DNA from: Spartobacteria bacterium LR76
GTDB taxonomy: Bacteria; Verrucomicrobiota; Verrucomicrobiia; Chthoniobacterales; Terrimicrobiaceae
Assembly: GCA_003054655.1 (NCBI GenBank)
Contig: QAYZ01000016.1
Span: 372,001-436,000, forward strand
DNA length: 64,000 nucleotides
Direction of reading: 5' to 3'
In this document: in pieces, positions 35,236 to 39,870 of the stretch
Layout: every line of letters starts with the position of its first letter
Numbering within the stretch: position 1 is the first letter of the stretch
Position numbers and translations under genes: made by a program
Notes under the pieces: generated by a model
What the model saw: the letters and a program-made list of their open reading frames with translations, nothing else
What the model was told of the DNA's origin: nothing
Database searches by the model: none

Positions 35236-36027
35236 CTACTCCAGCACCAGATTGCGGCGCGTATTGCCATCGGCGCGGATGCCGGTGGCGTAGCGCCAGC
35301 AGAGGCGGATGCCCGCCTCCGGGCTCGCCGCCCAGTTGCGCAGGGCCGTCGCGTGGTGAAACTGCCCCGCGAGATCCAGCGGCACGGCCAGGTACTCCGC
35401 CAGCGTGGCCGGGTCCTCGTACTCCTCGTACCAGAGGTCGTGCATCAGCGGGGTAAAGCCTGCCTTGTCCAGCCAGTCGGCCAGGTGCTTCCCCGCGCGG
35501 GTGTTGCCGCCGTTGCAATCCTGCAGCGTGCGATAGGCCTGGATGGCTCGATCCACGCGCACCGGGTGCGCGGTCAGGTCGATGGCATCCCAATCCGGGC
35601 TGCACACGCCGATGAATCCGCCGGGCTTCGTCACGCGATGAAACTCATTCAGCGCGGGCATCGGGTCGCGCAGGTGCTCGAGCAACGCATGAGCAAACAC
35701 CACATGAAACGCCTCATCGGCAAAGGGGAGCTGGTCCACGTTGCCAGCCACGAAATCCACATTCACGATCTCGCGCCCCTGCGCATTGCGCCGGGCTTGG
35801 TCGAGCTGCTTCTGCGAAAGATCAAAGGCCGTCACATGGCCGGGGAAAACGCTCTGCGCGATCCCGGTCGTGATCGTGCCTGGGCCGCATCCGGCGTCGA
35901 GCACGTCAAAGCCCGGTTGCAGCAGAGGTGTCAGGAAAAAGCCGTGCGTGTCCAGGTCGCGCGCTGCTTGGAAAGCAGTCGCGGTGGCCGTGTGTCCCGG
36001 CGTGTACTTTTGGCGAGTTGGATTCAT
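35236..36027 (-). CDS. Class I SAM-dependent methyltransferase
   Basis: A 263-residue UbiE/type 11 methyltransferase. Motif I is VLDAGCGPGTIT, motif II VTAFDLSQKQLDQAR, the post-II region VDFVAGNVDQLPFADEAFHVVFAHALLEHLRDP and motif III RVTKPGGFIGVCSPDW. The C-terminal half has no substrate signature, so the substrate cannot be named. The ATG at 36027 (MNPTRQKYTPGH) is chosen; an in-frame ATG at 36051 would add eight residues. Directly upstream on the same strand lie a terminator, a short leader frame and a promoter, suggesting attenuation control. Confidence 0.88.
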   Translation of the reverse strand: MNPTRQKYTPGHTATATAFQAARDLDTHGFFLTPLLQPGFDVLDAGCGPGTITTGIAQSVFPGHVTAFDLSQKQLDQARRNAQGREIVNVDFVAGNVDQLPFADEAFHVVFAHALLEHLRDPMPALNEFHRVTKPGGFIGVCSPDWDAIDLTAHPVRVDRAIQAYRTLQDCNGGNTRAGKHLADWLDKAGFTPLMHDLWYEEYEDPATLAEYLAVPLDLAGQFHHATALRNWAASPEAGIRLCWRYATGIRADGNTRRNLVLE

Positions 36028-36080
36028 TGGAGTTGGTTTTTGGTGGACCAACCCACTGTCCTTCTATTCAGCCGTGAAAT

Positions 36081-36112
36081 AAAAAATCCCACAGCCTTCA
36101 GAGGGCCGTGGG
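36081..36112 (-). terminator. Strong intrinsic terminator in the methyltransferase leader
   Basis: On the minus strand CCCACGGCC (36112-36104) pairs with GGCTGTGGG (36096-36088), nine pairs including one G-U, with a short loop. It is followed by an A and six T (36087-36081). This is a textbook terminator, and it lies 53 bases before the methyltransferase ATG at 36027, not after a gene, which suggests attenuation. On the plus strand the run after the stem is poor. Confidence 0.75.
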
Positions 36113-36137
36113 TTTGTCGTTTCAGTGAGTTCTCAAT

Positions 36138-36194
36138 TCACCACGATGCCACGGCTCCCCGGCCGACGACGGCCTTGGAGACGACGGAAATCAT
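36138..36194 (-). CDS. Candidate leader peptide, 18 codons, Val-rich
   Basis: ATG at 36194 to TGA at 36138 on the minus strand encodes MISVVSKAVVGRGAVASW, with five Val in 18 residues, Val-Val pairs at 4-5 and 9-10, and a final Trp. It lies about 20 bases after the predicted start of transcription and 25 bases before the terminator stem. No strong ribosome-binding site is seen (GAAG about 15 bases upstream). Placement between promoter and terminator is that of an attenuator leader; translation is not proven. Confidence 0.45.
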   Translation of the reverse strand: MISVVSKAVVGRGAVASW

Positions 36195-36223
36195 GATGGA
36201 AACGAGATGCTTCACTGCCGCCT

Positions 36224-36251
36224 AGTATAAGGACGGCTTATCCATCCGCAA
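36224..36251 (-). promoter_or_regulatory. Promoter for the leader and methyltransferase
   Basis: On the minus strand TTGCGG (36251-36246), a 16-base spacer and TATACT (36229-36224). The -10 box matches five of six positions. Transcription would start near 36217, giving about 22 bases before the leader ATG. It occupies the intergenic space shared with the divergent gene at 36314. Confidence 0.6.
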
Positions 36252-38096: not shown

Positions 38097-39002
38097 CTAA
38101 GCCTTTACCGAGCGCAGGCCGAGATTATCGAAGATGCGGCGGGTCGCGTCGGAGCGGTTGAGCGTGTAGAAGTGGATGCCGCGCACGTTGTTTTCCAGCA
38201 GGTCGGCGCATTGCTCGGTGGCGTAGTGGACGCCGATGCGTTCGACCGCAGCGGGATCATTCTGGCCGCGCTGGAGGGCGCGGAGGAGCTTGGCGGGGAA
38301 GCGCGCTCCGGCGGCGAGTTCCGCCATGCGGCGCATGCCGCCCAGCGACGTGATCGGCATGATGCCCGCGATGATGGGGATGTTGATCCCGGCCAGCGAG
38401 CAGCGGTCGCGGAAATCGAGGAAGTCGCGATTGTCGAAGAAAAGCTGGGTGACGATGTAGTTCGCCCCGGCATCGACCTTGGCCTTCAGGTAATCCATCT
38501 CCAGCAGACGGTTGGGCGTGGCGGGATGTCCTTCCGGAAATCCGGCGACGCCAATGCCGAAGCCGCGTGGGTCGGCGTGCTTGCCGCTGGCATTGAAGCG
38601 CGAGATGAAGCTGACCAGATCGGCGGCATGCTGAAAGGCGTCCTTGGAGCGGTCGTAGCCTTCGCGCACCGGGGGATCTCCGCCGAGGGCGAGGATGTTG
38701 CCGACGCCTTCCTCGGCATAGCGGGTGAGGATGCTCTCGACCTCGGCCTCCGTGTGGCACACGCAGGTGAGGTGCGGCACGGGGTTGAGCGAGGTGGTGC
38801 GCTTGATCCGCAGCACAAGGTCATGCGTGAGGTCGCGGGTTGAGCCGCCTGCGCCGTAGGTGACGCTGACGAAGTCCGGGCGGTACGCCTCGAGTTCGCG
38901 AATGGTTTGGTATAGATTCTCCGAGGCCTCGGGAGTTTTCGGAGGGAAAAACTCAAAGGAGAACGTGGTCTCGGATTCGCGCAGGGTGTCCTCGATATGC
39001 AT
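38097..39002 (-). CDS. metF: 5,10-methylenetetrahydrofolate reductase
   Basis: FAD enzyme reducing methylene-THF to methyl-THF for methionine synthesis. The 301-residue protein has TTFSFEFFPPKT at the start (Glu as proton donor), FVSVTYGAGGSTRDLT, PHLTCVCHT, NILALGGDPP, GIGVAGFPEGHP, YIVTQLFFDN and PIIAGIMPI, the complete MetF set. The ATG at 39002 is preferred because the longer opening lies antisense to the neighbouring gene's start region. There is no room for a SAM riboswitch in the 85-base gap to the divergent methyltransferase. Confidence 0.96.
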   Translation of the reverse strand: MHIEDTLRESETTFSFEFFPPKTPEASENLYQTIRELEAYRPDFVSVTYGAGGSTRDLTHDLVLRIKRTTSLNPVPHLTCVCHTEAEVESILTRYAEEGVGNILALGGDPPVREGYDRSKDAFQHAADLVSFISRFNASGKHADPRGFGIGVAGFPEGHPATPNRLLEMDYLKAKVDAGANYIVTQLFFDNRDFLDFRDRCSLAGINIPIIAGIMPITSLGGMRRMAELAAGARFPAKLLRALQRGQNDPAAVERIGVHYATEQCADLLENNVRGIHFYTLNRSDATRRIFDNLGLRSVKA

Positions 39003-39087
39003 GACGGGCCGGAAAGAATCACCTGTCAGAGGCAAATTGGCAATAATCCGTGTTTCCGAAGGGACGGTTTTGGCGCAAATTTTCCCC

Positions 39088-39870
39088 ATGGCCGCCCTCA
39101 ACGACGCGCAAAAAGCCTCCCGGGACCAGTTTCAGAAGCAGAGCGCCCGGTACGGGAAATCCCATATCCTGGCCAATGTCGAGGATGTCGCGGCGCTGCT
39201 CGATGGGGTGAGCTTTCCTCCGGGGGCGTGTGCCCTGGATGTCGCGACGGGTGGGGGGCATACTGCGCTGTATCTGGCCGGGCGCGGTCTCGTCGTGACC
39301 GCTAGCGACATTACACCTGCCATGCTGGAAAATACGGCGAAGCTCGCGGCGGAGCGTGGATTTTCCATCGAGACGGTGCTGCACGAGGCGGAGAGTTTTC
39401 CCTATCAGGATGCCGCTTTTGACGTGGTGACGTGTCGCGTGGCGGCGCATCATTTCAGCGATCCCCGCCGCTTTGTCATCGAGGCCGTGCGGGTGCTCAA
39501 ACCGGGCGGTTACCTCATGGTGATCGACGGCAGCGTGCCGGATGGCGAACCCGAGGCCGAGGAGTGGCTGCATCAGGTGGAAAAGCTGCGCGATCCGAGC
39601 CACGGGCGATTCATCGCTCCGGCGGTGTGGGCGCAATGGGTGCGGGAAAGCGGACTCGAGGTACTGGAGTGCGCCACGACGCCTTTCAAGCAGCCCGACC
39701 TGGAGTGGTACTTCCAGACCGCCGCAACCTCGGACGAAAATCGCGCCAAGGTGTTGGATTTGGTCGAGTCCGCGCCGGAATCCGCCCGCCGTGCCTTCCG
39801 ACTCGCCGTGGAGAATGGCAATATCGTCTGGTGGTGGCCGCGCCTTGGGCTGCTTGCGAGAAAGCCGTAG
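39088..39870 (+). CDS. Class I SAM-dependent methyltransferase (UbiE/type 11)
   Basis: A 260-residue methyltransferase. An N-terminal helix with FQKQSARYGKSHI precedes motif I ALDVATGGGHTALYLAGRG, motif II VTASDITPAMLENTAKLA, VLHEAESFPYQDAAFDVVTCRVAAHHFSDP and EAVRVLKPGGYLMVIDG. This N-terminal pattern is typical of small-molecule methyltransferases near UbiE/Coq5, but the substrate is not deducible. The ATG at 39088 is selected by family length. Its stop codon lies within the left arm of the inverted repeat at 39866. It diverges from metF. Confidence 0.9.
   Translation: MAALNDAQKASRDQFQKQSARYGKSHILANVEDVAALLDGVSFPPGACALDVATGGGHTALYLAGRGLVVTASDITPAMLENTAKLAAERGFSIETVLHEAESFPYQDAAFDVVTCRVAAHHFSDPRRFVIEAVRVLKPGGYLMVIDGSVPDGEPEAEEWLHQVEKLRDPSHGRFIAPAVWAQWVRESGLEVLECATTPFKQPDLEWYFQTAATSDENRAKVLDLVESAPESARRAFRLAVENGNIVWWWPRLGLLARKP

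Follow-up and report, generated by a model that had tools for sequence, protein, structure and literature searches.

A probable valine-responsive transcription attenuator, related to ilvB leaders of Verrucomicrobiota, ahead of a methyltransferase gene

The element described here lies on the minus strand of a 64,000-nucleotide stretch of DNA from Spartobacteria bacterium LR76 (the window). It is very probably a ribosome-mediated transcription attenuator that responds to valine, a homologue of the leader found at ilvB in related Verrucomicrobiota, and it stands before the gene of a small-molecule-type SAM methyltransferase (MT). An earlier note on this DNA had pointed to a minus-strand promoter, a short frame, a strong terminator with a T6 tract and, 53 nt later, a methyltransferase gene. 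All of these are where it had placed them, and its proposal of a leader-peptide attenuator before a non-Erm methyltransferase gains support from a conserved frame, terminator and antiterminator. Since homologous leaders precede ilvB and leuA and the MT leaders keep a Val character, the element is best read, on these sequence comparisons, as an ilvB valine attenuator that has been moved or copied to MT. Its conservation, its reading frame, its mutually exclusive structures and its homology to ilvB leaders emerge directly from the computations.

The leader peptide frame (36138-36215, minus strand) has a GTG start and 25 codons followed by TGA: VKHLVSIMISVVSKAVVGRGAVASW. The earlier note had recognized a real frame and its correct stop, but had started it at ATG 36194 (18 codons, 36194-36138). 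That internal ATG is not conserved, and comparison with relatives puts the true start at GTG 36215, seven codons upstream, where G003, G004 and G076 have ATG. The leader peptides of a second genus, MNHLVFVKISVVSKAVVGLGAVALLRS and MNQLVSVKISIVSLAVVGPGAVAILRS, likewise both begin with ATG where the window has its GTG. The frame, whose conservation in relatives had been proposed as a check, is indeed conserved: start (ATG or GTG) and stop are kept, and in an alignment of 11 MT leaders all 32 runs of gaps within the frame have a length divisible by three (3, 6 or 9), unlike the gaps in the spacer. Conserved ends and this gap pattern together point to translation of the short frame that precedes the terminator. 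Valine accounts for 22% of the residues in 12 MT leaders and 25.5% in 58 ilvB leaders, as against 4.8% in MT proteins; for the window's own leader taken alone the enrichment is modest (P 0.007 at an assumed background of 7.5%). The control codons (36165-36185, minus strand) are two Val-Val pairs, both GTC GTC, at codons 11-12 (36185-36180) and codons 16-17 (36170-36165). The Val cluster sits at the edge of the antitermination window, an enrichment of regulatory amino-acid codons at the control position, and Val codons fall within the stall window of every MT leader. MT leaders have shorter Val runs than those of ilvB, and beyond Val richness the peptide sequence is not conserved between families.

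Upstream of the frame lie a -35 hexamer, TTGCGG (36251-36246, minus strand; TTGC or TTGACA at the same place in relatives), and, after a 16-nt spacer, a -10 hexamer, TATACT (36229-36224), separated by 8 nt from the start codon of the leader. Only 8 of the 12 positions of this promoter agree with the consensus, and a generic promoter scan scores it below threshold; it is nevertheless backed here because the homologous leaders show both promoter enrichment and a characteristic -10 spacing. The best promoter score averages 7.45 over 71 homologous leaders, compared with 5.55 (sd 0.21) in shuffles, and in the 48 leaders that score at least 8 the -10 element mostly ends 7-10 nt 5' of the leader start codon. 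SD-like tetramers are scarce (4 of the 71 leaders). In view of this spacing, these scores and the near absence of SD-like tetramers, the leader transcript is probably nearly leaderless, its transcription starting at or just before the start codon.

The intrinsic terminator is a stem-loop, CCCACGGCC-CTCTGAA-GGCTGTGGG (36088-36112, minus strand), with a T6 tract (36081-36086), and the ATG of MT (36027) follows 53 nt past that tract. Its stem (36112-36104 with 36096-36088) comprises 9 bp, seven of them G-C, with a folding energy of -16.1 kcal/mol (z -4.0 relative to shuffles), and it heads the terminator scan list for the surrounding 4 kb. Over 11 leaders, 99% of the stem cells are paired, so that an intrinsic terminator precedes the structural gene throughout; the stem is too invariant for covariation to inform. 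The 5' arm, CCCACGGC, is invariant among the aligned MT leaders, and its complement, GCCGTGG, lies near the end of the frame (36149-36155, codons 21-23), with GCCG kept in 11 of 11 aligned MT leaders. This is the 5' strand of the antiterminator; it pairs with CCACGGC (36111-36105) of the terminator arm, which doubles as the antiterminator 3' strand. Family f7 has GCCGCGGG or GCCGTTGG in place of GCCGTGG, and its helix is extended, GCTTCGTTT pairing with AAACGAAGC. The antiterminator strand is hidden by a long leader hairpin whose core, GGCCG-TCGT-CGGCC (36161-36174), is invariant in the five leaders of family f1. The whole leader RNA folds as this one long hairpin plus the terminator, at -59.7 kcal/mol (z -4.8).

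How a translating ribosome would choose between these structures was modelled by moving the P site codon by codon and folding the downstream RNA as far as the terminator 5' arm, with the 3' arm absent, on the assumptions of a 16-nt offset of the ribosome edge and of equilibrium folding. With the P site within or before the Val cluster (the last such codon being 13-17) the antiterminator forms with a probability of about 0.75-1, with dips, in all 11 MT leaders, and it is lost as the ribosome nears or covers the GCCGTGG strand. When the complete RNA is folded at equilibrium, the choice also switches in f1, f8 and G210; in f7 and G212 the terminator mostly prevails. With no ribosome, most leaders hide the antiterminator strand in the long hairpin. 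In G004, G071, G072 and G073 the naked RNA is predicted to prefer the antiterminator while the 3' arm is still missing, and the untranslated off state is less clear there. In a swap test on the flanking antiterminator helix, strands at the frame end were given the pre-terminator partners of other species: over 62 leaders a strand's own partner pairs better than those of others (z -7.1, 0 of 5000 shuffles), and for the 12 MT leaders alone z is -3.8 with the terminator arm and a weak -1.7 without it. Ribosome-position folding and the swap test together point to a mutually exclusive antiterminator that a stalled ribosome would free.

The combination of leader, terminator and MT recurs in 14 genomes from six families of one Verrucomicrobiota class, a conservation that excludes chance as the origin of the layout. 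Two genomes of the window's genus carry the leader at 95-96% DNA identity, and in a second genus it is present in two genomes although MT is only 62-65% identical. With the MT protein as query, 213 genomes of the order yielded more MTs, five of which, in families f7 and f8, show the same layout with diverged leaders. A first covariance model, trained on nine MT leaders, led to two further leaders in family f13 (E 2.7e-10 and 6.5e-8) and in both the next gene is the same MT, a gene that had no part in the search; two more pairs come from other families of the class (G294 and G339). In a tree of 30 MTs, a branch with support 98/99 separates the 14 that have a leader from the 16 that lack one, and no leader match was found at the MT relatives in Nitrospirota, Burkholderiales, a cyanobacterium and Amycolatopsis. 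In the sample covered by a phylum-wide search at E 1e-6, the window's own copy was the only convincing match. Weak model matches in the window's own genome lie within coding frames and were judged to be due to chance. In family f13 (L032 and L033, from about 1654) the leader is retained even though the MTs have become shorter and have diverged (28-32% identity).

A covariance model built only from 11 MT leaders was run over the whole class; 85 of 384 genomes gave a match, and 75 loci were read. The gene directly downstream is ilvB (acetolactate synthase large subunit) at 62 of them, MT at two and leuA at two, ilvB leaders being reached at E values down to 1.5e-14. The remaining nine, most of them among the weakest matches, look like chance terminators or coding sequence. 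Homologous sequence and architecture thus unite the MT leader and the Verrucomicrobiota ilvB leader in one RNA family. The window copy precedes MT, and the window genome's own ilvB was not found to be under the same leader, a difference that concerns the target and not the RNA. G339 carries the element before MT and before one of its two ilvB genes. Among the other MT-leader genomes checked, there is no leader at ilvB where its upstream region could be read (the ilvB locus of G004, and G210, were not judged), so MT is not co-regulated with ilvB by this element in the checked genomes except G339. The ilvB leader peptides carry Val runs (VVVV), for example MLKNVTQAVSLVVVVVGDAVGAC and MNQVLVQLVTISVVVVSDSAAVELCA, and those of the leuA loci are rich in Leu, for example MNRNLNLLLTSALLTGAAVGF. 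Since homologues precede ilvB with Val runs and leuA with Leu codons, it is most likely the codons, and with them amino-acid supply, that are read, rather than an arrest motif; this kind of RNA appears to read codons for the amino acid made by the pathway under its control.

These ilvB valine attenuators (L065-L131 and L133; 62 loci) are common in the class; their terminators are very similar in sequence and their promoters nearly leaderless. One of the ilvB leader loci also holds an Acido-Lenti-1 RNA match (RF01687, 45.7 bits, L080:2137-2183). The leuA leaders (L117:200-330 and L125:200-350) have the same kind of terminator, CCCACTGCC...GGCGGTGGG, and look like a leucine version of the switch.

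From all this we infer valine as the signal, the sense of the regulation, near-leaderless initiation and the working of the element in the cell. Transcription would begin at the start codon of the leader or just upstream of it, and ribosomes would load on a nearly leaderless mRNA. With Val-tRNA plentiful, the ribosome would pass the Val codons to the stop and cover or pass GCCGTGG, the terminator (36112-36081) would form and MT would not be transcribed. With Val-tRNA scarce, it would wait at Val codons 11, 12, 16 and 17 and disrupt the long leader hairpin; GCCGTGG and the following TCGT would then be free to pair with CCACGGC and ACGA, blocking the terminator and letting polymerase continue into MT. 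The comparisons suggest, then, that valine shortage switches on an uncharacterized MT in these Verrucomicrobiota.

Whether it is valine in particular that is sensed deserves a closer look. Ile and Leu codons also occur in the MT leaders (V, I and L together make up 8-12 of 25-29 residues) and Ala is the second commonest residue, as would suit an attenuator sensing branched-chain amino acids generally, or another amino acid such as Ala. That possibility is an improbable one, given that Val is the commonest residue and has codons in every stall window, and that the homologues have Val runs at ilvB and Leu-rich peptides at leuA.

Still less probable is an erm- or cat-like leader, in which a ribosome-targeting drug and the nascent peptide (ISVV/KAVV) would stall the ribosome and induce a resistance methyltransferase. 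Control of erm genes works by drug-dependent arrest of the nascent chain and is mostly translational; the peptide is conserved at the arrest site and the target is an rRNA methyltransferase. The general layout, a short frame before a methyltransferase gene, is shared with erm leaders such as ErmAL1 (IAVV), and in our leaders the stall window has Ala-Val or Ser-Val steps close to its edge; such steps would suit context-specific peptidyl-transferase drugs. However, there is no conserved arrest peptide, the families differing except in Val richness, and the homologues at ilvB and, with Leu codons, at leuA point to codon reading, so that the likeness to drug-dependent leaders entertained in the earlier note is unsupported. 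Nor is the downstream gene one for an rRNA adenine dimethyltransferase. MT (35236-36027, minus strand; 263 amino acids) is a class I SAM-dependent enzyme of the Methyltransf_11 type (Pfam, 6.9e-25), like small-molecule enzymes; its family matches include no Erm or rRNA adenine dimethyltransferase family, and no curated NCBIfam cut-off was reached among the families shown. Its predicted structure (pLDDT 91) best matches the solved structure 3mgg (Z 25.6 over 235 residues, rmsd 2.2, 23% identity), a Methanosarcina mazei protein listed only as a methyltransferase and with no known leader. The fold search returned the general small-molecule class I methyltransferase fold only, with no rRNA methyltransferase among the matches listed. 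The third explanation, that promoter and terminator belong to a small-protein gene or structured small RNA standing on its own and that MT has a separate promoter, can be set aside as very improbable, as can the same idea in the earlier note: the leader RNA does fold strongly, into a long hairpin and a terminator, but it stays directly before MT or ilvB, its antiterminator is conserved and the scan, which covers the gap that the note had singled out (36081-36051, between terminator and MT), found no promoter consensus there.

A valine-responsive attenuator of this design has well-known counterparts. In E. coli ivbL-ilvBN and ilvL-ilvGMEDA, the position of the ribosome at Val, Leu or Ile control codons chooses between terminator and antiterminator. 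The same control logic is proposed here; the E. coli systems differ in leader sequence, in having branched-chain amino acid biosynthesis as their target and in their Shine-Dalgarno-led leaders, with which the near-leaderless look of the present ones contrasts. Leader-peptide attenuation of ilvB has been argued to be common in other lineages (Narunsky et al., PMC10272879). The ilvB-II uORF attenuator of Corynebacterium and the ilvB-OMG and Leptospira ilvB motifs, the last with at least three consecutive Val codons, resemble our leaders in combining a peptide rich in branched-chain amino acids with transcription attenuation upstream of ilvB (PMC10272879). In contrast, the leaders described here match no Rfam family, and the window copy controls a methyltransferase gene instead of ilvB. 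In Rfam 15 no family exceeded its gathering cut-off on a leader, the matches being weak and due to chance, and among open-licence papers we found none on Verrucomicrobiota ilvB leaders or on MT under such control, in keeping with the earlier suggestion of a possibly undescribed leader-controlled methyltransferase. The mechanism is thus of a known kind, and the RNA family and its MT target appear to be new; what is added is an apparently undescribed family of RNA regulators, common before ilvB in one Verrucomicrobiota class. The same switch would serve ilvB and a gene without assigned function.

What MT does for the cell can be approached through its neighbours. In the window, metF lies upstream of it on the same strand (38.1-39.1 kb); hom lies 81-130 nt downstream of MT in three f7 genomes, and metY and metA lie upstream of it in G339. 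These neighbours hint at methionine or aspartate-family metabolism in some genomes, not all. The window's metF (methylenetetrahydrofolate reductase, minus strand) and a second class I methyltransferase-like gene on the plus strand are arranged head to head (38100-39870). The idea that MT stands in for a lost step of the valine pathway is unsupported, ilvB, ilvC and ilvD being otherwise present (of 11 MT-leader genomes tested, all have ilvD and 10 have ilvC; ilvB was also found). We would speculate, and hold the idea only tentatively, that valine limitation induces an MT with an unrecognized role in amino-acid metabolism, the ilvB attenuator having been copied once and its pairing kept in every member of the branch found. 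If that were so, MT might tie SAM and methionine metabolism to valine supply, or act on a branched-chain intermediate; an anonymous methyltransferase in any case gains a testable inducing condition, valine limitation.

Elsewhere, families f4 and f5 (L034, L035, L036 and L037, around 1500-1700) have short frames, for example MCQRFAVWAVARSGGERI and MVVRIWNTNMGRGAF, followed by a terminator such as AAAACCCACTGC..GCAGTGGGTTTTTT and then by a small gene (about 65-75 amino acids) and, in one case, a lexA-like gene after it, possibly a further attenuator family.
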